This document shows, piece by piece, positions 1 through 20,900 of a DNA stretch of 64,000 bases. The translations under genes and the position numbers were made by a program. The notes under the pieces were generated by a model that worked only from the letters and a program-made list of their open reading frames with translations, did not search any database and was not told the origin of the DNA. Source of the stretch: Flammula alnicola (lineage: Eukaryota; Basidiomycota; Agaricomycetes; Agaricales; Strophariaceae); contig JADNRV010000092.1 in assembly GCA_015499995.1 (NCBI GenBank), forward strand, positions 1 to 64,000. Reading direction: 5' to 3'. Position 1 is the stretch's first letter; each line of letters starts with the position of its first letter.

Positions 1-1264
1 CACACATAGGTCTAGGCCAGGAAAAGTGTGATGAGAGTTTGGGAATGTAAGGAAGGTATGAGGTGGTGACACGTCATATGTGATATGGACACTGCACTCT
101 TGAATAGCACCAACTGACAGAAGGTTCACAGGTGCTCCCAGAGCATGAAGGCAGTGAAGGAGCCAAATGGCTATACATTTACTTTGGTAGAAAACATGAA
201 ACTGGACTTCACTCATCATGAAGGCACACAGAGAGCCACAATTTGCCATACCAATGTCAACCACACGCAAAACATCATAGTTGTAAAAGAGAGAGCGATC
301 ACATATAATGTGGTGTGTGCAACCAGAGTCGAGCAGTGTGTTGTACCATCCAAACAGCACAGATGAGGTGACAAAGGCGAAAGGGTGTGCAGGGATAGGG
401 CACTCGATTGCAGTCTTGCAGGCAGCCAGAATGGCGAAAGGCTTGATGTCACTCGCAAAACCATACCAGCAACCCTCAAGAGGGGTCAAATCATCATTAT
501 GGTAGTTACTGGTAATCGACATTGCTGAGACGGCATTGGGTAAAATAGTAGAAGTGGCACATATGTAATAGGTTCTGCATGACTAGGAAGAGGTTCCACT
601 GAAAAAAAGATACAAATGTATCATCCAGAGGAGGAGGCATAGGAGGAGGAGATTCTTTTTCCAAAAGATCTGAGAGTTTCACAAGTAAGGCCTGCACCTT
701 GGGTTTCAAATGATGATAGTCCTTCGACAGGTGGTAGAAAGATCTGCAACCAGTGCAAGGGTGTTCAAGATGAGGTGGATGTTCGCTGATAGGGTGAGAT
801 GAAGCAGCTGGAATAGGAGCTGCCAGTGCATGGTTCACTGTAGCAGAAAGTCCCAGAGCACTCCCATCCAAAGAGCATGGAAGTTGTGGTTGCACTGGGA
901 GAGGCATAATACAGTTATACTCTGCATCTGAGACCTGCTCCAAGAGAACCATGAATTCATCAATACCAGCATCATCTATCCCGTTGAGACCCATGGACAT
1001 TATCACATTGTAGTAGGAGGGAAGGCAAAGCATGAACTGATGAGTCAGGTAGCGAGTGTGCATCAGGAAACCTGTGTCCGCAAGTTGAGAGACAATATCG
1101 CGCCAGCGGGTGACATAGCTCCAGACATCGCAATGATTGCAAAGGTAGACAATCAACTCATTGAACATTGTGCTGCAGGTGTTATAGTTCCCTAAGCCCA
1201 AGACCTTGTTGATAGCCTTGTATGCCTCGAGTGCAGTCCTAGTACCATTCTGGTTCCTCTGTGA
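1..1264 (-). pseudogene. Copia-type gag/protease fragment, broken and cut by the window edge
   Basis: Read on the minus strand, about 1260-506 encodes a gag-like (UBN2-type) region followed by a zinc-knuckle-like patch beginning PCTGCRSFYHL. The last expected Cys of the knuckle is Tyr. The reading frame stops near 506. Homology resumes in another frame at about 335-300 with the aspartic-protease signature LLDSGCTHHI, then jumps frame again near 295 and continues as a pre-integrase region (INLLSVGA-like text, here VNLLSVGAIQE) to the window edge. This layout (gag, knuckle, LDSG protease, pre-integrase) is that of Ty1/Copia polyproteins. The frameshifts and lost Cys mean it is not functional. 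It belongs to a different element from the complete Copia at 2082-7618, because the gag and protease sequences differ. Confidence 0.75.
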
Positions 1265-2076
1265 CTAGCTGCTTTTGTCATCAAGAAAAATGTAAAAAAA
1301 ATTAACCAAAGCCTGCGGTTTTGAAAATTGCATGTGCCAAATATGGAATTTCTTGATTAGAAATAGGTCCCACAGTCTCATTTTGATATATTTGTAATTC
1401 TGGAAGCATGCTCTACAGTTACTTTTTTTTTTTGGCAAAAAGTTCCCACGGTACCTGAAACAGACCAAATAAGGTGATTTCAGTTACCCAAGTGAGATGG
1501 CATATGCATATTTGTAATCTCCTTAAAATTCTAAATCTGATGGTACCCCATTGACCCTGAATCTCTCCTGGGGCTCTGGGTTCAATTCCTGAAAGATGCA
1601 AAATCTTTAAATGATATTTTTCTCTGAGTTCTGTCTAAGTCCACCAAGTTGAAGTCCTATGTGGAATGTTGGTCATTCCTGTGGATTGCGGTCAGGATTC
1701 CTGTGGACTCCATTCCATTCCTGTGGATTCTGGTCTATTCCTGCAGATTTCGGTCCATTCCTCTGGAATTCAGTCATTCCGGGAGGAATCAGAGGAATAA
1801 AAAGTATTGCACAATGATCCAGCTTGCAGTTGCATTCTGGAAATCTTACTGTAGCCAGACATACCCAATATGGTATATGTCCCAAATAACTATTTCCTTG
1901 ATCTGAGCTTTTGATCGGCATTGCTACAGGCATGTCTATGGGTGTCTGCTTTATCCCACTGCTCCACTGTCCTCAGTGCCTCTGGCAATATCATGCGACC
2001 TGTCCTGTAGTGTGCCTAGATGTCTGTTCTTTAATCTAGAGACCCATGCCCTCACTGTATAGGCTGGATGGTTAAG
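1265..2076. other. Gene-free repeat-derived stretch
   Basis: No coding signal is visible here. It contains poly-A/T runs and a short degenerate tandem repeat (listed separately), and it forms the left flank of the Copia insertion. Confidence 0.6.
1672..1787. repeat. Degenerate ~20-bp tandem repeat
   Basis: About five imperfect copies of a unit resembling GGTCATTCCTGTGGATTC follow one another, each 19-22 bp long. Copies differ by substitutions and small indels. No coding meaning is apparent. Confidence 0.7.
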
Positions 2077-2081
2077 ATATT
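2077..2081. repeat. Target-site duplication, left copy (ATATT)
   Basis: ATATT directly abuts the left LTR here and is found again directly after the right LTR at 7619-7623. A 5-bp direct repeat is the expected footprint of Copia integration. Confidence 0.85.
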
Positions 2082-2472
2082 TAAAGTTACAAGTGCAGGT
2101 AAGTAACTCAGATGGACATGAGAATGTGTAACGGCTGTATTTCACCTAAAGTTACAAGCGCAGGTAAGTAACTATGGAGAAGTATTAGTCTACATTTAAT
2201 GAGAGTAGGATAGAAGAATACTGACCTCAGACGGACACAAGAATGTGTAACGGCTGAGGTCAAGTAAAAATGTGCTACGAAAGATATCTGCATGCGGGAA
2301 GTCCTGCGTGCGATGGCATGCTAGTGATCACAGTATGGGCGTACGCGGTCCATAGTGAGTAGTCTATGTGGGTGGCTACAGAATGTAGGGCACGTATGTC
2401 AAATAGATAAGTAAAGAAAAGTAAGGAATAAATTAAATGAAATAAAGAGTAACATGCCCGTTTACACCAACA
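2082..2472 (-). repeat. 3' LTR of the Copia element
   Basis: 391 bp, about 96% identical by eye to the copy at 7228-7618. It contains two copies each of GTTACAAGYRCAGGTAAG and of a GGACACGAGAATGTGTAACG-like block. The terminal dinucleotide is mutated (TA instead of CA on the element strand). Confidence 0.95.
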
Positions 2473-5400
2473 CTCCCCTAAACTGCATGACTCTCCTGAG
2501 TCGAACAAACAGAGTGCGTGTGCTTGATTTTCTGTGGCGACACGAGGCAGTGGCTTCATGAGGATGTCGGCTAGGTTCTCTGCTGATGGTACATGTACCA
2601 CGCGCACATCGCCTTCGCTAACTCGCTCTCGAATGTAATGGTATCGGATGTGGATATGCTTTGCTCTCTTGTGGCCCTTCTTGCTTTCCATAAGTGAGAT
2701 CGAACCAGTGTTGTCGTTGTAGAGGATAGCAGGTGTTTCCTGCTCGAGGCCTGCTTCCCGCATGAATGAGTACATCCATACTGCCTGTTGGCAGGCGCGG
2801 CTCGTCGCCATGTATTCTGCTTCCATCATCGATAGGGCGACCGTGTCCTGGTGTTTTGAGCTCCACGAGACAGGTCCTCCTGCCATCGTGAATATATAGG
2901 CGCCCGTGGATCGTCCGGTGTCAAGGAGGTCACCAGCATAGTCTGCATCGATGTATCCTATTGGTTTGAGACTGTCCTGGGTGCCTCAATGGTAGGTGAG
3001 TTTATAATGTAGAGTAGCTTTGATGTATGCCAGAACGTGCATCAATGCCTTCCAATGTGCCGGCCCTGGGTTGACCTGAAAACATGCGAGAAGGTTGACA
3101 GCAAAAGATAAATCCAGGCATGTTGCGACCTGGGCCCACATAATGCTCCCTAGGACTTCGCGATAGGGTTTGTCTGCCATGAAGGTCTTCTGTTCTTCTG
3201 TGATGGTGCAGTCGTCCAGAGTCAGATCAATTCCTGATGGGAGAGGTGTGTATTTTGGGTTACAGTCAGACATGCTGAAACGCTTGAGGATTCTTTCGAA
3301 GTACGGTCGTTGGGATAATGTGATCGCTCCTGTCTTCTCATCTCACTGCATACTCATCCCGAGTATAAGCCTTCCCTTTCCTTCCTCCTCCACTCTCTTG
3401 ATTTCGTATGCATCCTCGAGCTCCCCTATCGCCTTCATCTCTTCTTTTCTCATCGTAGATCCCCCAATAACATCGTCTGTATAAGTGACATTTAATGTGT
3501 ATTGTCCATCGATGACGCGGTGTCAGACGCATGGGTCAGCGAGCGACTAGTAGTATCCTAGAGCATTGTGAGTGCCCAATAACTCCTCCTCCCAGTCGTG
3601 TGTGCCCGCCATCATGCCATAGATGGTTTTGTTAGCCCGGTATACCAAATGCTCCTCCCCTGGCGCAATGTGCAATGAAACTGGGTGCTTGACAAGTGTA
3701 GGCCTCGAATTTGTTAACGCTGTTCAGGTATGCTGCAACAAAATCAATCTGCCAGAGATGCATCCCGAGGTGAGCAATAATCACAATACACATCCGCATC
3801 GACTTTAGCCGAGCCACTGATGCATACATTTGGTCGAAATCAACACCCGGTATTTGGTTGAAACCCTGCGCTATGAGACTGGCTTTCCAGTTGGCGATCT
3901 CTCCTTCAGCGTCGTATTTGAACCCAAAAATCCATTTGAGTCCAATCACCTTTCGTCCCACTGGGCGCTCGACTTTGCTGAATACACCACATTTACGCAT
4001 TACTTCCATCTCAGCCTCCATCAGCAGCAGCCACAAGTTGGCGTGTTTCATGGCATCCTCGTATGAGCGCGGCAGGTATGTGTCGTTATCGGCCTTTGTC
4101 AACAGTGCCATGTATTCATCCAAATCCGCCTGAAATGTCCCCATGTGGACTTGCTGGAACTCGATTGAATCGAGATCCATGTCAAATCCTGGTTGTGCAG
4201 TGGTTTCCGGATATGCCATATTTGCTGTGGATTCGTCTATGGCCCAATCGTCGCCTTGTTCCCTCGCATTTGCTTCTCTGGTGGACGATTCTGCAGAATC
4301 CAGCACTCCAGCAGTGGGCTGCGTGATCCTTCCGGAGCATCAAGGTAATGGAGGTAGGGCTGGAGCAGGGTTGGACGCATTGAACAATTGTATGTTTGCT
4401 GGGTGTTGTCCAGGTGCTGATGGTACATTGTGGAGGATGTCTGTCGCTCTGTGCCTGGGTGCAACTGGCTGTGTTTCTTGGATTAGATTACCAGCGCGCC
4501 CAGTTTGTGCAGCCTCAGGTATGCAGTCTATGGGTGCCTGAGTCTTCTCGACATCTGCTCGGTTGTCGAGTTGTTCGAGATCAGGCACATCCTCGAAAGT
4601 GAACATGGGATCATCGCATAGCTTTTTTTGGTCAAACAGAGTGTGATGTCCTGTGCCTTCCTCAAAAACTACATTCCGTGCCTTGACAATAATGCCTGTG
4701 TTGTGATCTAGTAACTTGTATGCGTCACGGCCATAGTACCCGATTAGAGTGTACTTGATAGAGGTTGAGTCGATTTTAGATGGGTTTATTTCCTTCGGTA
4801 TTTTTGCATAAGTGATGGATCCAATGGGTCTTAGATGTGAGACATCCTGTCTCTTTCCGAACCATCTTTCTGCTGGGATGTGACCTGGGTGCTGACGTGA
4901 TGGCATGAGATTGTGAATGTAAATCACCGCCACTAAGATATCTGCCCAGTATGAAGGAGGAAGTCCGGAATCACATTGGACACACCTAACCCCCTCAATG
5001 ATAGTGCGGTTTGTTCGCTTGGGAACCCCATTAGCTAAGTGAGTGTATGGTGCTGGTGTCTCGATTATGATGCCATGTTCCTTGCAGAAATCGGCCAGAG
5101 CGTGCATAAGGAATTCTTTGGCCATGTCGAGGCGGATTCTTTTGAGCTTTTTACCAGTATGTAGCTCTGCTTCAGCCTTGTATGCCTTGAGCGCTTGGAT
5201 TACTGCGTCACCAGATTTCTCGCTTAGGAAATATTCCTTTCGAAATGATGATCCTCTGTCGGTGACAATCATTGCATATCTCACTCCTCCGCTCGAAATC
5301 ACACGTGCGGGTCCCCATAGATCGATGTGAACCCTCTCAAGAACCTTCTTTTCTGGAATGACCCTTTCATCATATGGTCTTGAGGTTTGTTTGCCATATA

Positions 5401-7148
5401 TACAATCCTCGCACATCCCGAGGTTCTCCTTCCCATTAACAATCTGGAGACCATCGACCAGGTTTTTGCTCGCCATATCTTGAATTGTACGCTTCCCAAA
5501 ATGGCAAAAACACTGGTGCCATTGGTCGATTGAGGTGGGTTTCTCATGTGACTTTGCTGGCATTGCAACGTGTGGTGTACTTTTAGTGTTGACCTCCTCG
5601 AAAATGTACATTCCCTTCTCCTTGTTGACCGATAGGAAGTGTTGCCCAGCAGGGTTGATCAATTTGCATGTTCCATTTCCAAAATGGACTCCAAAACCTG
5701 CATCGTCGAATCAGCTCACAGAAATCAGATTTGCCGCGAAATCAGGGGTGTGTAGACAGTTTGTTAGGGTTAGGCTTGTTTGTAAATTTCCTGACTTGTA
5801 TCATTTGCTGACTGTTCCTCTTCCATGAATTTTGAATCGTGCTCCTCGGCTGGCTGCTTGACCTTCCTGGTGCTCGATAAATGGTTCATACGCGGAGAAA
5901 TCAGATTTATTAATAAAGCAATAGTTGCTCGCCCCGGAGTCTGCATATGTCATGATATCTAGGTTGGTACCAGCTGTACTCATAGCTAAGGTATTCCCAT
6001 CCATTCCTTGCTTCTCCGGTATAGCTGTGATGACATATTCAGATTCATGGGCCTCTCCAGTTTCAGGGTCCGAAGGTAGATCAGCGACAATGATTGGATG
6101 TTGGATTGGGTCAATGAGGGTGATTTTCCCATAGACTAGAGGGTGCTCGTCGACGATTTCAGGCATGTCCGTACTGCGCGGTGAGTGTGTATGCTGTTTC
6201 AGTTACTGCCGCATTTGCGATTGACTGTGTTGTTGTTGCACTGGTGGCTGACCCTGTAGTTCCGCCTCTCTGGCCAAACCCAGGGGGGAATTGTCCCTCC
6301 TTTTCTCCGCCCTTCCAGTAACAATTGGCAATGAGGTGTCCCTTTTGTCGACAGATCGGGTTGGTGCAGACCTTCTTTTGGTATGTATCAGTCTTGGTTG
6401 AAGCTTTCAGGGCAATCACTGATGATCCGGGGGCAGATACGCGGCTGGTCCGATTAACTCGGCTCCAGTGTTGCTCGAGGTGGATGATAGTATTGATAGA
6501 TGTTGATGAAGTGTGCAGGGTCGAGATAATGTTGTCCCAGGATGGTGGTAATGATGCTAGTATGATTTCACGGAAATCAGCATCATCGATCTTGGCACCC
6601 ACAGTGTTTGCTCACTTGTGCTTAGTGTGGAGGTCAGCAAGGTGCATGGGGAAATCCTCTCCATCGTTGAGATGAGCACTTCTGAGCTCTCATTGCACGT
6701 AGACTCTCGCGAGGTCCGTGGATGTCTTGTACCTATCAGCCAATGATTTCTACGCCTCCGCCGATGAACCATCTGTCTTTAGTCTGAGCCCTGTCGGGTT
6801 CTTAACATTTTGATGGATCATGATGTGGCACCAGGCATCTCTCGCATCTCACTCTTCCCACATTGGGTTCGTCAATGTCCATGGTGTTTCGGCAACAGGT
6901 CCGATGGCAGCAGTGGTAGCAGCCACTGCAGCAGCTATGACCACAGGTGTAGTTTGTGTGGTGGTTGTGGTGGCTGTGGATGTGCCTGGGGTTGCTGGTT
7001 GTGGGATGGTGCCGTCTATGTATCCTCATGCTCCTCGGAGGCGACACGCCATTAGGATTGTGTCGCACCATTCCAAATAGTTTGTTCCATTGAATTTTTC
7101 GTCATCTGGGAGTAGTGGCGGGGATAAGCCGCTGCCTTTTGTGGCCAT
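2275..7148 (-). pseudogene. Copia gag-pol polyprotein, degenerate
   Basis: A start codon at 7148 opens a gag with the UBN2-like motif KFNGTNYLEW. It is interrupted by TGA at 7026-7028. A C-x4-C-x4-H-x4-C knuckle ends gag near 6300. The protease (DSGASNY) lies near 5935. Integrase follows with CEDCIYGK of its zinc region and the first Asp in HIDLWGP, but the catalytic Glu position reads NGVPKR instead of NGVxER. Reverse transcriptase has QIDFVAAYL and the YTDD box at 3472-3483. RNase H has DADYAGD and MMEAEY. Two stops, at 3343-3345 and 2986-2988, each look like CGA changed to TGA at a CpG. Several frame jumps are also present. The last frame runs into the 3' LTR and stops at 2275. Confidence 0.92.
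2473..2479 (-). other. Polypurine tract of the Copia element
   Basis: On the element strand AGGGGAG lies directly 5' of the 3' LTR, the expected plus-strand priming site. Confidence 0.7.
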
Positions 7149-7215
7149 GTGTGTGTAGTTTTGCTGAGCCTAGCGATTGTCAGTGTCCAGGTTTTCTGGT
7201 TAAAATTTTTGTGCA

Positions 7216-7227
7216 GGGCCCATAACC
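7216..7227 (-). other. Primer-binding site matching the internal part of initiator tRNA-Met
   Basis: Directly after the 5' LTR, the element strand reads GGTTATGGGCCC. This is the complement of the anticodon-loop region of eukaryotic initiator tRNA-Met (GGGCCCATAACC), not of a tRNA 3' end. Copia-group elements are known to prime from a cleaved 5' half of this tRNA, so the site fits that mechanism. Confidence 0.8.
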
Positions 7228-7618
7228 TGAAGTTACAAGTGCAGGTAAGTAACTCAGATGGACACGAGAATGTGTAACGGCTGTATTTCACCTAAAGTTA
7301 CAAGCACAGGTAAGTAACTATGGAGAAGTATTAGTCTACATTTAATGAGAGTAGGATAGAAGAATACTGACCTCAGACGGACACGAGAATGTGTAACGGC
7401 TGAGGTCAAGTAAAAATGTGCTATGAAAGATATCTGCATGCGGGAAGTCCCGCATGCGATGGCGTGCTAGTGATCACAGTATGGGTGTATGCAGTCCGTA
7501 GTGAGTAGTCTACGTGGGTGGCTAAAGAATGTAGGGCACGTATGTCAAATAGATAAGTAAAGAAAAGTAAGGAATGAATTAAATGAAATAAAGAGTAACA
7601 TGCCCATTTACACCAACA
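7228..7618 (-). repeat. 5' LTR of the Copia element
   Basis: 391 bp, TG...CA on the element strand. It holds three self-complementary pieces: AGTTAC/GTAACT arms at 7231-7254 (a second copy near 7297-7319), GACCTCAG at 7369-7376 with CTGAGGTC at 7400-7407, and a 10-bp perfect inverted repeat (arm GCATGCGGGA, 2-nt spacer) at 7436-7457. The promoter of the element would lie here, but no clear TATA box was picked out. Confidence 0.95.
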
Positions 7619-7623
7619 ATATT
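7619..7623. repeat. Target-site duplication, right copy (ATATT)
   Basis: This is identical to 2077-2081 and directly adjoins the right LTR. Confidence 0.85.
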
Positions 7624-7869
7624 ACTGAAATGCACCTATTCTGTACACTTTATTAGATGTATTCACTATTATCTCAATAGTTACTAAGGATAATGTCTTT
7701 ATTAAACTGTGCATTCCTTGTTATCTTGCATAGTTTCCTCTAGTTCTTAGTAGTCTTGTCATTGTAGTCCAGACTTGTAACATTTAGACTACATTGTAAG
7801 CTTTACTAAGTGCTAAAAATAGCTCAGGTAAGGAGAATGGTAGTCTATTCAGAGCTAGCCGCTCAGCGG

Positions 7870-8070
7870 TCTCTTCACTAGATTGGCTCTACACTTGAAT
7901 ACCTTCTTCGAGGTGTACCATTTGAAGTCATGAAAGTCAAAGGAAGATGGGCAAGCGATGCCTTTATCAAATATCTCACAAAGCATTCCCAAATCCTTGC
8001 CCCATACATGCAAGCTGTACCAGAACTTTATGCATTATTTATTAAATTAACCATGCTCCCCGTGCGCTAA
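7870..8070 (+). pseudogene. C-terminal remnant of a tyrosine recombinase (Crypton/DIRS/Ngaro-type)
   Basis: From 7882 an open frame of 62 codons ends with TAA at 8068-8070. It reads IGSTLEYLLRGVPFEVMKV, then VKGRWASDAFIKYL and HSQILAPYMQ. Fungal tyrosine recombinases end with just this arrangement: an SFRIG box with the catalytic Arg, then K(G/Q)RWxSDAF, then the tyrosine. The codon just before IG is TAG, where the catalytic Arg of SFRIG would be, and nothing recognisable lies further upstream before the Copia LTR. It is therefore a dead fragment. Whether the parent was a Crypton DNA transposon or a DIRS/Ngaro retroelement cannot be told from this piece. Confidence 0.75.
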
Positions 8071-11000
8071 GAAGGTAAGCAACAAGCCCCTCCCCTGCTC
8101 CTAAAATATGGGTATCCCTGATTCGCTGGATGCATTGCAGGCTTCCTAAAATATAGGAATCATAGCTCATGTTGGTTCTCCCCACAGGAACAGCTATCAG
8201 GACAAAAGCCTACAGCTTTGCCCGTATATTGCGACCACTATGTATACAAAAAAATAACTCAGTCAACATTGACTAAGTATCACCTAAGTCATAGCTTCAA
8301 GAATCTAACATTCAAGTTTGCTTGAAAGTGCACACACTTAAGAGGTTCAGAGGTGAGCAAGGAGACTTGTAAGATTGCTACAAGATCTCACGAACTACCT
8401 AAAGAACTAACTAGTTAGTCTACTGCTTTATATAGGGTCCAATATGGCACACAGACCATAATGTGGCATAGGTAGTGAGTCACAAAAGGTGATATAAATT
8501 GAATAGACCCAGAAAGTAAAAGTTGAGTTAACAAGAGTCCATGAATGCTGATACAAAAATAGACAAGACAAAAATAGGAAGGTATGGTACATAGCACTGG
8601 GAATAGTTGGCTAATAATATTACATGGTAAAGATAGAAGATGAAGAAAAATAAATGAGGTTTGTAACAGGTCCAGAATAAAGCAGCACTGCTAGCTAACA
8701 TGCACATAAAACACATGGTAGATGAAAGTTGGAAGACCTATTGCACACTAAAAATAATAAAAATCCTAAATCCTCAACCTCTGCTGGATCACCTAAAGGA
8801 CACAACCCTATACCTAGAGCCTGCAGGCAATGTTAACATGTGATAAGAGTGCTTTGCCTTATTTTATTTGCATCCTGAAACCATACATCACTGGAAAATA
8901 AAAAATGTATCTATGTTGCCTTAGAGACTCTTGGTGTATATTAAATGGTATTCAAAACTGGATGCCATTGCTGATCAGAAAAGTTTCCCCCATGACTGAC
9001 CCAACTAGAGTACAAGGTGCTATTTTTCCATTGTTAAATATTTTTAGAGCTGCATGTTAATAACTGGTTGAGTAAATACAGTTATTAGACTATTTGGTAG
9101 AGAGAAACTGATGTAGAACTATATATATCTATATTATAATATGACAAGGCACTTTCTCATAGGGGATAAAGACAATAGACAAGTACCATAAAAGGATATG
9201 GCTGAGTCTCAATTTCGAGCCGGTGATGGCCTAGCAGCTCTAGCTGAGACCTGGTGCATATGGCTCGATCTCACATGCGCAGGTCTTACCGTCTCGTCAT
9301 CTTATACTACTGCATACCTCTGGATCACAGGTAAGTGGTGCTACACATGGGTAAGGGTACTATGCACAGGTAGGAGTACTATGCATAGGTAGGAGAACTA
9401 TGTGGGTACTAATGTATGGGTAGAAGTACTATGCATGGGTACAGGTACAGGTATTACTATTACTTCTATTTCTTGCAAGTTTTTCTGCTTTAATTTAGTT
9501 GGAAATCAAATTAGACATTTCTTTCATTCAGTGTAGCAATCTGGAATATAAATCTTGGGTAGTTTAATAACACACATTTTGATCTCATTTCTTGGATCAA
9601 GCTCAAGATTTACATATACTCCAACATTGAATTCATTAAAAGACATGGGTCAACTGCTAGTTGAATTATAAAATACAAGAGTCCAGAACTTAGAAGTGCT
9701 TTGGGAAAAGCACCCAAGGATGCTGAATATGCTTTGGAAAAGTTGAAATTACTTAAGTTGATCTGGGATCTATACCCATACCTGCCATTAAAATAAGATT
9801 AAAACACCCAAAATAGTTGAGAAAAGGAGATACAACTGAGTGCATTTTATTATTTTAGCCATATCTCATTTAATTCCAATCTATTTTGGATGTTCTTGGA
9901 TTTGTTTTAAAGTTCACTGATATGCTAACATATATCATATCAATACTCATGCATATCCATAACTCCTTTGCATTTGCCTACAGACCAATGAAAACTTTCT
10001 AAACTTGACAAACAGCAGATGATGGATCATTACATTGACCTTGCAGAAATCACCTGGTATAAGAACAAGTCCTAAGAACAGGACTTATAATGTGTGTTAT
10101 AATCTTGCCTAGCTCAGCTGCTGGTACACTGTTGTAACTTTGCACTCCTCGCAACTTGCAAGTCAAAACATTCTGAACTCTTTGATAAGAAAGGCCACAT
10201 AGTTTGAGAGTTTTTATGATAATGATCATAGAGGCTATGGACACAGAGGAGACAGGTACAAAGTCTGTATTATAGGAGGTAGCCTGTAGGATGTAGCTCC
10301 TCTATTAAACCCATGGAATATGAGAAGTTGAGTGATTTGAAGGAATAGAAAAGTTTAACAATATTGATGAAATTATTCCCACAAAAGAAGAATGGTTTGT
10401 GAGCAATGACAGTCATCATGGGAACAATAAATAAAAGTATAAGCAGTGCATTTAAAATGTGAGTCATCATGAGAAAAAAAAAAGTAATAATAGATTTTAT
10501 ATAACATGAGTAATCTAGTATCATATGATATGTCACATGAATGATTGTGTGTGAAAAATATGAGTAATCATGAGAAGTTCTATGATAAGAGAAGGATGGT
10601 GTGTGAGTGGTAGCAATCAGTATAAAAGAAAGTAAGTAAAAGCATGAGTTACAAATTTGTCAAGTTGAAAGAGAGAAAAATATCAGTTTGTCAATATTAT
10701 TAGTCAATACAAATAATAAAAGCCAAAGAAATAGATTATGTTTCAATAACATATTTTATTCAGTTGCAAGAAAGGCCAGTATCATTTTCAAATTCACAAT
10801 GTTGTATACACCACATATATAAGCAAATATACTAAGTATATAAAGAAGTGGAAGAGATCAGTCATTTATAAAAATAAAGCAGGAGATGACCAATAATTCT
10901 CATGATCTATTTTTACATGAAAGAAGAAGCATCCAAAGAAGCTGAACCCAAAGACCCCAGTCAAAATTATAAACCAACAACCAACATGCAGCCATAAAAG

Positions 11001-11102
11001 GTTATATTTTCTAATAAGAATGGACTGGATAGAACCAGTTAAATAGCCCTGGGTGCATGCTAGGCTTACACTCAGTTCACTTTTACCCAGTTGACTAGTT
11101 CA
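8071..11102. other. AT-rich gene-free stretch
   Basis: Only short, protein-unlike open frames occur on either strand. The DNA is AT-rich and almost without CpG. It includes the tandem repeat at 9331-9450 and repetitive text around 10380-10620 in which phrases such as GAGTCATCATGAG recur. The last 60 bases should contain the promoter of the Rep gene. Confidence 0.6.
9331..9450. repeat. ~19-bp degenerate tandem repeat
   Basis: Six to seven imperfect copies of a unit resembling GTAGGAGTACTATGCATAG occur here, following a GC-richer island at 9197-9330. Confidence 0.8.
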
Positions 11103-12404
11103 ATGCCTGCTATTCCTTCTACCTCTGCTACTCCTGCTATTGAAGTGCCCTCTGTAGAGGGTATTCCACCTGCTGACCTTCCCAATGTGGGCACTATAGT
11201 TCACTTTGGAGGAAGTAACTTTAGGTGGAGTATCAAGAAGTGTTTTTTAACCTACAGCCAAGTATGTTGCTTTGATAATTCTGGATAATCTAACACATTG
11301 CTAATATTTCAGTAGGTTGGTGATAGACCTTTTGCTGAGGTCACTGTCTTAATGGACAAGCTCAAGCCCAAGCCAGTCAAATGGTTTGCAGTGCAAGAGT
11401 TTCATGAAGATGGAGGCTGTCACTGGCATGTTTTGGTGTGCTGGGACAAAGTCTTTCGCTCCAGGAGTTCTAGAGCCATGGACATTGATGGTGTCCATCC
11501 TCATGTAAGAACGTAAGCACTTTTTTTTTCAATCAAAATTTTTGATTATAACCAACAAATTTTTAGACTTCCTACAGAACACAATATGGATAAAGTGATC
11601 CAGTATATGCGAAAAACCCCAGGTGCTCTGACAATGGGCAACTGGGTGCCTCCTTTAGTGCAAGAGCATATTGGAACCAAAAAGGAGGTGTGGAGCTATA
11701 TTAATAATGTGAGTCATTTTACCTATTAATAATAAAAACAACACTTAAACTGGTTATAGGCATCCACAGAAGAAGAATTCTGGGCTCGCATTCGAATTCA
11801 TGCACCCTATGAAGAAACAAATAACTACCACAACCTGCTTTTTTGTTGCCAAGTGCGCTACAAGCATGAGAAAAAGCAGACTTTTCAATCAGATTACCAG
11901 CCTGGGGATTTTCCTCACATTACTTCAGCAATGAAGAACTGGTATGAAAGATACATCAAGTCTGAGAATCCTGGAAAGAGGCCCAAAGCTTTAGTCATCT
12001 GGGGGCCTTCCAGAACAGGTAAAACAGAGTGGGCCAGATCACTTGGTGAGTGATATTTTTTTAACAGATGATAAATTACTGAATAATCCTTAGGCCATCA
12101 TATCTACTTCAATTCCATTTTCAACTTGGATCAGTTTGATGAAGGAGCTGAATATGTTATCTTTGATGACTATGACCCCAAAAACTTCACTAACTACAAG
12201 TGTTGGTTTGGTGGACAGGCAGAGTTTAATCTGACTGACAAGTACACCAGGAAGAGGACTGTCAAATGGGGAAAGCCAATGATTTGGCTGTCTAATGCCA
12301 ATCCACTTGAAGATCCAGTATTTGATTCTGATTGGTTGGCAGCTAATACTGCAGTAGTCCATCTAGATAGCAAGCTGTTTGATGAACCAGAAGTTCCTTT
12401 CTGA
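11103..12404 (+). CDS. Endogenous rolling-circle replication initiator (Rep) of the CRESS-DNA, gemini-/genomovirus-like type
   Basis: Five exons (11103-11261, 11316-11512, 11567-11708, 11760-12045, 12094-12404) joined by four GT-AG introns of 48-54 nt give 364 codons with every phase matching and no stop. The HUH endonuclease motifs are in order: motif I KCFLTYS in exon 1, motif II CHWHVL in exon 2, motif III VIQYMRK with the nucleophile Tyr in exon 3. The superfamily-3 helicase follows: Walker A GPSRTGKT at the end of exon 4, Walker B VIFDDYD in exon 5, and motif C with the sensor Asn in WLSNANP. In viruses Rep nicks the origin, ligates it and unwinds DNA in the nucleus. No coat-protein gene or credible origin hairpin is nearby, so this is an integrated, spliced copy, not a whole viral genome. 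The ATG at 11103 was chosen as the first in frame. Only six CpG occur in 1302 bp. It could be domesticated, or be the replicase of a Rep-driven mobile element. Confidence 0.93.
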
Positions 12405-13316
12405 ACCTGATAAAATATTTACAGCATGCTTGTATTTGTAGGCCATTACTTTACACACAGAAAAATTTCCCTCTTTTATTTTCTGCACTCCCATCTAGAA
12501 AGATATAGAAATTATGTTTTATTCTATACCTGTGTTTTTGAAATGCTATTTGGAAACAACAATTTTCTAGCTATCCTAATGACCACCATGCAAGTAGTCA
12601 TAACACTGAAAAAGACTCTCAAGAAACCATAGAACTCAATGTACTATTTTCATCTGTTGTAGGACTTGAGAAGTAGACATGTGCACTCAGAACACTTGAA
12701 TGTATGTGTATAAGCAGGCTATAACACTGAAGCAAGAGGTAATGTTACCACAAAGCATTTAAATCCTGCATTGCCATTTTAGTGAACCACTCAAACAAGT
12801 GAATAGTGGGCAATAGACAACCAATATACAAGTTAATCAAGCCTGTGATGTCTGGAGTTTGTGATGCATGAGTGGTAACAAAAGAAAGATAGAGCAAGCA
12901 CCATGGAGAAAAACTGCAGTGCTCATAATGCATAAAGAATGTCAATACAAGGGTCAGGGACAGGAGAGCCTAATAACAGAAGAGAAATGCAAACATTTTG
13001 ATAACTGCTGCAGGAACACATAGACTGCAAGCCAAGTATGGTACAAAGCATCCAACACATACACATATTTGTCAATGGCATGCCAGTGATTTTATTGTGC
13101 ATCTAATAATTATGTGTTACAATGGATGGGAGGGAAACAGTTATCATGTTTAATAACTTCAGATCAGAGCCTATACAGTGAAGAAGGGCTTGGACAACAC
13201 TGCATGTATCAATGTTCTTCTATCCAGGTCTACAAAGCAAAGCAGATAGCAAGGCCAGAGGGGCATGAGGATGAACTGGCAACCAGTGCCACGAGTTTGT
13301 AGCAATTCATAATTCC
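12405..13316. other. AT-rich gene-free stretch after the Rep gene
   Basis: It has no credible reading frame, coat-protein-like frame or terminal repeat. CpG remains rare until about 13290. Confidence 0.6.
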
Positions 13317-17900: not shown

Positions 17901-20900
17901 GCCTTCTAGCCCACGCCCTGGCGGTGGTATCGGAGGACCGCAAGCCATGACCATGACGCCGTCGATATCCTCCTCGTCTATAGGGTCGATGTCTGGCGGT
18001 GGTATGCCGAATGTTGGCGGTCCGCAGATGACGGCGTCGGCTGCTGCTGGTGCTCAAGTTAATTCACTAGGCGGCGTTCCAGGAGGAGTACAAGCAGCCT
18101 CTGGAGGTCTTGGACCTAACGTCGGTGCACCAGGTGCCATGCCGGCGTCTTCGTCTTCTACAGGAGGAGCAGAAGGACTCAGCACAGGAGCTGCCTCCCC
18201 TGCTGGCCCGATCGGCGGTGCCTCAGGCTCCTCTCTCATGGCGCCCCCACCGCCTCTGCCCTCACACGTCAACTACAACCCCAAGACGACGGAAATCACC
18301 ATCGTGCCCCTGCTAACATCCCTTACGACAATCCCACCGCTTTCATCCGAGGAGATATCACAGGTCAAGGAGTGGATGGCGACGGACCGCGCGTATGAAG
18401 GTCTGTTGCGACAGATGCAAGGCCGCATGCTCGACGAGGCGAGGGAGGTCTTCAGCGTCGGCGGCGCGGCGGGTCCGATGTGGTGGGACCGCGGTGCGCC
18501 AGGCAATGGGACGGGTAATTGGAACAGATGGAGACGAGGCAGAGAGAGCTTTGATGTGCGATACCCGAGAACGAGAAGGGAGGGCGTGTCGCGGAGTGGA
18601 AGAAAAGGAGCAAGGAGAGAGGGCTTGAAACTGTAAGTGTTTCAATGTTTATTTTTAAATGTTCCTCGTTTTAATTTGTTCGTGAAACTTTTTAAGGCCG
18701 AGGAAGATCGATCCGGAGGATGCAAATAGGCCCGAGACGCTTGTTCCTATCCGTATCGAATTTGATGTCGAGCACCACAAAATGCGCGATACGTTTGTCT
18801 GGAATCTCAATGGTATGCTGTCATATTTTTTTCCTGTCTGTTTCATCGATATTGATTTTGCTTGTTTTTTTTTTCAGACGCCGTTGTTACTCCAGAAGCC
18901 TTTGCTCAGTCCATTGTAGAGGACTACAACCTTGCACCATCATATCACAGTGTCATCGTCAAGTCTATCCAGGACCAGTTGAGCGACTTCCGCGCTCATT
19001 CGACGAACTACGACGGCGACGGGGCCGAGCTCTTCGATAACGATGCAGCCAATGACGGTGCTGTTATCAAAGGTACCCTGGACGAAGAGAATGCCAAGTG
19101 GTGGGATGTCTGGCGGCGCAGAGTCAAGTTGCAGAGTGCGAGAGCCATAGCGGACGCGAACGCTCTTGCAGGCGACGGAGAAAGCGGAAAGACGGCCAAA
19201 CGCAACGGAAGTAGACAGCGCAGCAGTAGCCGGAAGAGGCGGAAGATGGTCAAGAACGAAGACGATCCCGACGCGGACGTGAGCATGTTGGCGGACAACG
19301 AGGACGAGCAAGATGACGAGAAAGACGAAAGCGAGAGAAAGAACAAGGCAGTATCGTTTGACCTTGATGACGAGGCTTATAAACCCCTGAGTGTGGAAGA
19401 GATTATGTTGAACGAGAAGGCTATGCACGAGGACATGCGGATTTTAATCAAGGTGCGCTGTTCATTTTATTTGCAGGTCTGCTCCTGGTTTTAATGTTTG
19501 CCGGATGTAGTTGGACATCATCGTTGGTTCTATCAAACTCGACGACCAATTTGAATGGGACTTGGATAATCCCATGGCATCGCCCGAGGAGTTCGCAGAA
19601 GTGTACGCGCAGGAACTGGGGCTCGGCGGTGAATTCAAGTATGTCAGCTCTCTTTTGCCATTCTTATATACCCGTTTCTTTTCGCCATATTCATCATTTG
19701 TTCACTCAAATTTATCCTTGATCCGTGATCGTCGTTCTTTTTCACGACATGCAGAACCGCCATTTCCCACTCGATAAGAGAGCAAGTCCAGACCTACAAC
19801 AAGTCGCTCTTCCTCGTAGGGCATCCCTCCGATGGGACTGCTGTCCAGGATGACGACCTCAAGCAGTCCTTCTTGCCCAGCCTCACCTCCGGTGCACGCC
19901 CTGTTGGTGATGTCCTGATGTTCACGCCGTTGCTCAATTACCTTAGCGATGGCGAGCTCGAGCGCACCGAAAAGGAAAGAGATAAGGATCTCAATAAGCG
20001 CCGGAAGAGGAACACTCGTGGACGCAGAGGTATCGCTTTGCCGGATCGCGAACCCATCAGGACATATCGTACACCTGCAATTGGGTTCCCAGAGCTGGAC
20101 GCTGCGACACTGGCGTTGGCAGCAGCGGCGAATGCCCCCATGTCCCGCCGTGCGGCTGCGGCAGCTGCCTCGCTTACCATTGCCAACATGGTTGCGTCGG
20201 AAAATGGGACGGCGTTTATGCCTCAGACGATGCCCTCTGCTCCCCAGCCCACACCTGCGGCCACGACGCCGAAGGACAAGAAGCCCAAGGGTCTTTTCAA
20301 GGCCCCCACCTATCCTTCTTCTGTACTGCGTCCGCGAGCCCTCGTTGTTGCGCCTACCCCTTCAACTGCTGCGGATGTCTCATCAATGCCACCTGTACCT
20401 GCCGACAACGAGGCCCCGCGCTCGTCATCGTCTGCTGCACCGCCGCCGCCAGACAACAGAACCAACAAGGTCCTCACGGCCAAGAAGCAAAAGGAGCTCG
20501 AGAGAGAGGCGAAGGAAAAGGAATTCGTGGACGGCCAGCATCCCAATTACATCGACGGAGTGTGGCATTGCTCGAACTGCGGCTGCCCCGAGAGCATCGC
20601 TGTTGGTAGGAGAAAAGGTCCATTAGGTGATAAGTCACAGTGTGGAACTTGTGGTATGTGGTTTTATACTTTGCCGCGTGGTGTGATTGTGTTGATGTCA
20701 TTTCTTTTAAGGCAAATTTTGGCACAGACATAGGAGACCTAGACCTGTGGAGTACAACTCAGACCCTGACTTCCATTCAGGCGTCAAGCAGAAGGAGGCT
20801 GACGCGACAAAGACACCTGCATCGAAGAAAAAGGGTGCTGCCGCGGCCCTGCGTGCTCAGAGTGCGGCCCACAGTGCTACGCCAGCAGCGGATGCCTCAG

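Follow-up and report, generated by a model that had tools for sequence, protein, structure and literature searches.

In a stretch of 64,000 nucleotides from the basidiomycete Flammula alnicola (the window), we have identified an intact Rep gene of the CRESS-DNA type, which is best explained as an old endogenous Rep that is now a spliced nuclear gene, which selection has maintained in working form at a single locus and which is probably domesticated; we put the probability of this reading at roughly one half. New here are a repeat unit of ∼2.2 kb in which the intact Rep sits and which has decayed copies elsewhere in the genome, and a polarised test of the constraint on this Rep. Should the selection be confirmed, a eukaryotic virus replication enzyme has been kept by a mushroom with its decayed siblings as an internal neutral control, and the use of Rep by a fungus against ssDNA replicons becomes testable.

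Results

The Rep frame, 364 codons plus a stop, is assembled from five exons at 11103–12404 on the forward strand, as are all of the features of the gene given below. Exon 1 (11103–11261; codons 1–53) encodes residues 1–35, which are disordered, and HUH motif I (FLTYSQ, 11244–11261), and exon 2 (11316–11512) encodes motif II (HWHVLV, 11421–11438) together with an FRSR..DxxGxHPHVR block (11454–11510). Motif III (YMRK, 11604–11615) with Y132 as the predicted nicking tyrosine (Y132xxK135) is in exon 3 (11567–11708), Walker A (GPSRTGKT, 12003–12026) in exon 4 (11760–12045), and Walker B (VIFDD, 12156–12170), motif C (WLSN, 12285–12296), and the stop codon TGA in exon 5 (12094–12404). All four introns have GT-AG ends: namely, intron 1 (11262–11315; 54 nt, GTATGT...CAGTAG), intron 2 (11513–11566; 54 nt), intron 3 (11709–11759; 51 nt), and intron 4 (12046–12093; 48 nt). 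A first-pass annotation of this DNA had described a five-exon, 364-codon Rep with four short introns, three HUH motifs, Walker A, Walker B, and motif C; its coordinates and frame were reproduced, and every one of the motifs was located in the 364-residue protein. Its further statement that the gene has no lesion holds for the frame as modelled but depends on the sites chosen for introns 1 and 2, where nearer ones break the frame. Intron 1 ends with CAGTAG followed by G, and splicing at the nearer CAG would retain an in-frame TAG. Also, two GT donors, at 11505 and 11513 and thus separated by 8 nt, compete for intron 2; the frame is kept with the one at 11513 and shifted with the one at 11505. 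The upstream donor site reads TTAG, not TAAG, in three aligned decayed copies, and the competing donor therefore looks like a change on the window lineage. The NCBI prediction for the allelic copy (BDZ97DRAFT_1977654; P0001, 364 aa) is 99% identical to the window Rep, with identical residues at all four exon junctions, and the Reps of Amanita and Serpula align without gaps across the same four junctions. The transcript is probably spliced as modelled, giving a putative nickase/helicase of 364 aa.

Six residues (E81, H83, H89, H91, Y132, and K135) are invariant in all of the nine aligned Reps, and motif I is filled in six of the nine. Equally invariant in these nine are D109 and H114 of the D..G.HPH block between motifs II and III, which we take to be the GRS. 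Above the Pfam cut-off, the protein matches geminivirus Rep domains only, namely Gemini_AL1_M (E = 5e-15) and Gemini_AL1 (E = 1e-6). An AlphaFold2 model built on an alignment of 36 rows has a mean pLDDT of 86.7 and a pTM of 0.57, with residues 1–35 disordered. When this predicted fold was searched with Foldseek, a complete CRESS-virus Rep (9pqq) was matched with E = 9e-11, geminivirus endonuclease domains were matched with TMt of 0.63–0.73, and the helicase part matched viral SF3 helicases. The whole-chain TM is low (0.25–0.30 of the query), and the domains are thus supported but not their arrangement. Judged from its HUH motifs and its predicted SF3 helicase, the window protein is a CRESS-DNA-type Rep, and the block and the matches to Gemini_AL1 and Gemini_AL1_M assign it to the gemini/genomovirus subgroup.

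The first-pass annotation had proposed a protein search and a tree, and these place the basidiomycete Reps in one clade near genomovirus-like Reps. The tree was built on 44 of the 51 proteins found, with seven short or odd ones left out, and several of its rows are long-branched. The clade (100/99) consists of the proteins from Flammula, Laccaria, and Amanita, two from Serpula, and one metagenomic protein; next to it stand environmental sequences and the robinz virus, followed by a Genomoviridae sp. Rep, and these outer nodes have bootstrap values of 88–92 and SH-aLRT values of 77–82. The Genomoviridae sp. Rep (P0045) stands at the base of the wider clade (88/79). Inside the basidiomycete clade, the branching is Serpula, Amanita, (Flammula, Laccaria), in which the last fork is weak (91/56); this is the order expected from the species. 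Scans of viral_contigs confirmed no relative, in a collection from which the relevant viruses may be absent, and a plasmid search gave nine records, all of phytoplasma with 24–32% identity.

The Rep locus is chromosomal and biallelic. Contig C140 represents the other haplotype, given that positions 7684–37849 of the window align with C140:46575–77020 in collinear blocks of 95–98% identity (matches of >150 nt against C140:31001–77020 were considered); the Rep is intact in both haplotypes, and its site and flanks are common to them. A recent duplication onto C140 is ruled out, since C140 is the collinear allelic haplotig, and so is a contaminating viral contig, because host genes stand on the same contig and both haplotypes carry the Rep. 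The host gene on the right, ∼6 kb from the Rep, has an SNF5/SMARCB1 domain in two ORFs on the forward strand (18856–20730), and the ORFs from 14891 on may be the 5′ part of this gene. Between the alleles, the divergence averages ∼0.8% over 8300–12400 and is 8–17% per 100 bp from 12400 to 13100; this jump, which begins directly behind the stop codon of Rep, looks like a haplotype mosaic or a conversion tract. On the left, the ORFs of a copia-type retrotransposon are found on the reverse strand (4343–6611), with the Pfam domains gag_pre-integrs and SH3_retrovirus above the cut-off and rve and Retrotran_gag_2 below it. Positions 1–7684 of the window, which include this element, align with C140:31001–46575 in just two pieces (168 and 355 nt), and the copia element thus looks haplotype-specific. 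Apart from C140, a 260-bp repeat (7619–7878) has matches at no fewer than 37 other genomic places, a lower bound from the 40 candidates, out of 311, that were scored.

Searching the genome at the protein level gave 28 matches, with the window and C140 counted in, and DNA searches revealed that the homology of the copies reaches upstream of the Rep gene. The repeat unit common to the decayed copies covers 10370–12560 on the forward strand (∼2.2 kb with blurred ends), including ∼0.7 kb of upstream non-coding sequence, and one piece, in C190, matches the window further left, down to 10313. Further copies in the genome, and their boundaries, were another subject raised in the first-pass annotation; we located ∼11 fragmentary or decayed copies with blurred boundaries, namely in C133, C190, C231, C274 (two), C335/C434 (three), C47, C72, and C779, a count in which presumed allelic pairs (C335/C434, C72/C18, and C47/C861) are collapsed and six further contigs with matches are left out. 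The introns are kept in the copies where covered, and hence the copying was at the level of DNA. Most of the copies are 5′ pieces with varying 3′ ends, and besides the window locus, the 3′ half of the unit is kept by C335/C434 alone. Stops number six each in C335 and C434, three in C72, and two in C779, and there are none in the short pieces of C47, C861, and C274 (73, 73, and 38 codons); the longer copies also have indels, and several copies are split by insertions. Among the loci examined, only one is intact, and no young copy was found: except C140, the copies diverge by ∼11–25% from the window. Their tree is star-like with short inner branches, the branch of the window lineage being 0.057 and several others 0.1–0.12. 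A stop at codon 76 is found in all three copy lineages that cover this codon, and R101C is also common to the three lineages with data. The amplified source may therefore have been dead already; nonetheless, recurrent mutation also explains the common stop, as C>T or G>A changes in the copies amount to ∼0.16–0.23 per site per copy (0.56 in CpG), a rate at which a few such sites can arise by parallel mutation. Local copies m and r of C335/C434 (L034–L037) group by haplotype (C335m with C335r, 96/90; C434m with C434r, 74/65), as if they were homogenised within each chromosome. Also, the upstream stretch 10830–10960, which surrounds the candidate stem-loop described below, occurs twice in C47/C861, C133, and C190 in the form of partial repeats.

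As for the ends of the unit, which are known approximately, no terminal inverted repeat beyond 12–13 nt was found to join them within 10250–12700, and no fixed terminus emerged from the aligned ends of the copies. Their left ends vary (10313, ∼10371, 10406, and others), and no element terminus is therefore claimed. An apparent common end of C274a and C274b at 10443 was weakened by a piece of C274 (29364–29439) that matches 10370–10445 and points to an insertion at this place. The longest non-Rep ORF in the unit has 129 codons from stop to stop, leaving no room for a capsid gene, and none of the 10 ORFs in 10.0–13.7 kb had a Pfam match above the cut-off; outside the unit, a spliced or very divergent capsid gene could escape this search. 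The earlier remark that no coat protein accompanies the Rep thus stands, in that no capsid gene was found within the unit. An origin hairpin had likewise been described as missing, and here the outcome is divided: no TAATATTAC hairpin exists in the unit, but a weak stem-loop does. An exact TAATATTAC does not occur in the repeat unit, and the sole one in the window is at 8615, outside the unit; no significant folding was found at 8590–8650, 10466–10510, 11285–11335, and 12405–12455. The origin of a CRESS virus would sit upstream of the start codon. The weak candidate stem-loop (10869–10915, forward strand) is ∼190 bp before the ATG and has 18-nt arms with 83% complementarity and a loop of 11 nt, in which TAATATT is not found. 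Its folding energy does not reach significance (equalled or bettered by 17 of 200 shuffles), its covariation is not above that of shuffles (213 of 500 as high), and its conservation is no better than that of the sequence on either side (0.149 differences per site versus 0.145 and 0.187). This stem-loop can be recognised in the copies, and C335m and C335r have their left break within its left arm.

No constraint on the window gene was visible in unpolarised counts, with coding and non-coding divergence from the copies being about equal. Compared with the copy majority, the window differs at 28 of the 337 coding sites and at 31 of the 460 non-coding ones, and the coding differences are distributed over the codon positions as 11/9/8, with no third-position excess; among the changes private to the window (496 comparable sites), 6 are silent and 10 are replacements. 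Twenty of the 28 coding differences are T>C or A>G, with the copies holding the C>T/G>A decay product, as expected with parallel decay of the copies, for which this pattern argues without proving it, and the direction of change thus needs to be set independently. With the Reps of Amanita, Serpula, and Laccaria and P0004 as an outgroup, amino acid differences at which the outgroup equals the window versus the copy are 39:3 for C335 (the longest copy), 14:2 for C72, and 21:4 for C779 and, in smaller comparisons, 8:1 for C47, 9:1 for C190, and 4:0 for C274; for C335, 39 changes are hence assigned to the copy and 3 to the window lineage. The larger copy-versus-copy controls polarised in the same way gave 7:20, 6:15, and 12:7; the small ones are in part equally skewed (C72:C190, 7:1; C190:C274, 0:4). 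If the neutral share of the window is assumed to be 0.25, a value estimated from the branch lengths in non-coding sequence, neutrality is rejected by the C335 comparison (P = 0.003; P = 0.00008 at a share of 0.33) and is not rejected by C779 (P = 0.21) or C72 (P = 0.20). Five of the six amino acid changes on the window lineage are conservative by judgement, Y47C being the one that is not, and A348 is polymorphic. Furthermore, the chance that the frame of 1092 bases has survived neutrally since the copy burst is estimated at 0.0007–0.0055, based on allelic non-coding counts of 19 indels (16 of them non-multiples of three) and 213 substitutions at 5749 sites. The coding sequences of the two alleles have nine differences, 7 silent and 2 replacement; the probability of at least seven silent ones among nine is 0.0004–0.002, but the upstream non-coding sequence also differs little between the alleles, and the allele data alone are therefore weak. 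From the polarised test and the survival of the frame, the window Rep looks constrained, though not in the unpolarised counts, and such constraint could date from a mobile phase of the gene.

Discussion

In the reading that we prefer, a Rep gene like those of genomoviruses and geminiviruses would have entered the basidiomycete lineage long ago and become an ordinary spliced nuclear gene in F. alnicola; the unit would once have been amplified into the ∼11 copies that are now fragmentary or decayed, with one locus maintained. Y132 is expected to nick single-stranded DNA, and the ATPase to form an oligomeric helicase. The most likely use would be one maintained by the host, such as interfering with related replicons that enter the cell or with copies of the element itself. 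With no capsid gene beside the Rep, a host-maintained use is preferred over a complete replicating virus, and since young copies, termini, and a proven origin are all missing, selection for host use is somewhat likelier than that for element use. In the accessible text of PMC12774355, a genomovirus Rep expressed outside infection restricts fungal growth and needs its ATPase domain to do so; as far as that text goes, such a protein can thus affect fungal cells. The first-pass annotation had offered either domestication or a Rep-driven mobile element in place of a recent virus insertion, and this view is upheld in part: the locus is chromosomal and biallelic, its unit has no room for a capsid gene, the other members of its family are scattered and decayed, and the gene looks constrained in the polarised test and by the survival of its frame, but no constraint shows in the unpolarised counts.

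A somewhat unlikely alternative is a Rep-driven element whose one remaining functional master copy stands in the window, the unit having copied itself, or its truncated derivatives in trans, by rolling circle. Such a process would leave dispersed copies like the ∼11 found, copied at the DNA level with their introns retained where covered, in a star-like tree with short inner branches and mostly as 5′ pieces with varying 3′ ends; the weak stem-loop upstream of the start codon, with the left break of C335m/C335r in its left arm, would also suit it, as would the precedent of a Rep-bearing fungal transposon in Tuber described in the accessible text of PMC3198968. An element of this kind is, nonetheless, hard to reconcile with the failure to find a terminal inverted repeat or a fixed terminus, with a stem-loop that has no TAATATT in its loop and gains no support from energy, covariation, or conservation, and with the single intact locus and the lack of a young copy among the loci examined (∼11–25% divergence apart from C140). 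Its source may, moreover, have been dead already when the copies were made, given the codon-76 stop in three of three covering lineages, for which recurrent mutation is also possible.

That the gene is merely an inactive integrated Rep, young or lucky enough not yet to have been hit, is unlikely. Its frame would have survived neutrally with a chance of only 0.07–0.55%, the polarised ratio of 39:3 stands against 7:20, 6:15, and 12:7 in the larger controls, and there is a silent excess between the alleles; the similar unpolarised rates of coding and non-coding change are the observation that such a fossil would explain. Even less probable, in our view, is that the window Rep was lately re-acquired, its donor being an extrachromosomal virus or plasmid subject to selection of its own, with the old copies representing an earlier wave. 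The upstream non-coding part belongs to the copy family, and on the window lineage it, too, has diverged; both haplotypes have the same site and flanks, the gene carries four introns of spliceosomal type, and no relative was confirmed in viral_contigs, where the relevant viruses may be absent. A re-acquisition would account for constraint without a host function, and in its favour, only a few species of basidiomycetes are represented in the 26 proteins found.

Intact fungal Reps are an already known kind, into which the old endogenous Rep that we favor fits. The Reps of Laccaria, Serpula, and Amanita have the same architecture, are 39, 43, and 45% identical to the window Rep, respectively, and belong to one clade with it. 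Unlike in the published fungal Reps, both haplotypes are intact here, the exon structure is described, and decayed siblings from one and the same genome serve as the reference for testing constraint; among the literature matches listed, which mostly lie outside subscription journals, no title concerned a constrained Rep of Agaricomycetes. Liu et al. in 2011 (PMC3198968) reported fungal Rep genes, five of them in Laccaria bicolor, and some of the transferred genes are conserved and expressed according to the accessible text of that paper; fungal endogenous Reps are placed near Genomoviridae and Geminiviridae in that of PMC6186406. The geminivirus-like transposon of Tuber melanosporum is also a multicopy genomic unit of a fungus with a Rep gene in it, and it is described in the same part of PMC3198968 as having 37-bp terminal inverted repeats, transposase ORFs, an interrupted Rep frame, and a total of 42 Rep genes or remnants, which with one exception are >95% identical. 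In F. alnicola, by contrast, the copies are old and the Rep is intact, with no terminal inverted repeats found and no adjoining transposase ORF recognised. Genomoviridae and mycoviruses like SsHADV-1 share the domain order and the motifs of the window Rep, which is, unlike theirs, chromosomal and multi-exon with neither a capsid gene nor a circular genome. Helitrons have an HUH rolling-circle enzyme in a eukaryotic chromosome. The window Rep is likewise an HUH enzyme in such a chromosome, but above the Pfam cut-off it matches geminivirus Rep domains only, and viral SF3 helicases are the matches to its helicase part.

In C335r and C434r, a gene for a TET/JBP 2OG-dioxygenase (Pfam Tet_JBP, E = 3.5e-14) follows directly after the intron-1 acceptor, in frame with a decayed Rep exon 1; the joined sequences are on the reverse strand at C335:316560–317156 (L037) and C434:84564–85670 (L035). 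The ordinary TET genes of the same subfamily that were checked (C281 and C257) have no 5′ part of Rep. In C274b, a TET piece comes ∼48 bp later with a different TET breakpoint, and in C72/C18 one lies beyond window position 11772. Fungal DNA transposons capture TET/JBP genes according to PMC12730594, the main text of which contains none of the words geminivirus, CRESS, and Flammula. It is highly improbable, we consider, that the Rep is still a DNA-cutting enzyme in the fungus and powers a distinct class of rolling-circle element, with copies that keep the 5′ part and lose the 3′ part, as if it captured a demethylase-type TET/JBP cargo of the sort that is known from other fungal transposons. 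The genome has 32 matches to the TET/JBP domain and 119 to the KDZ transposase domain, and at least 16 of the TET matches have a KDZ match 3–6 kb away on the same contig. The homology of C190 (L046), C274b (L047), and C335r/C434r (L037/L035) is lost within 6 nt just after intron 1 (window 11312–11317), and the break in C335r looks like a separate one, given that Rep sequence continues up to 12560 in C335m, its neighbour with 96% identity. The intron-1 sequence before these breaks is CAATACT in C190 and TAATATT in the other two lineages as well as in the window. In C434, Rep sequence returns with a piece of exon 2 ∼1.6 kb after the TET/JBP junction.
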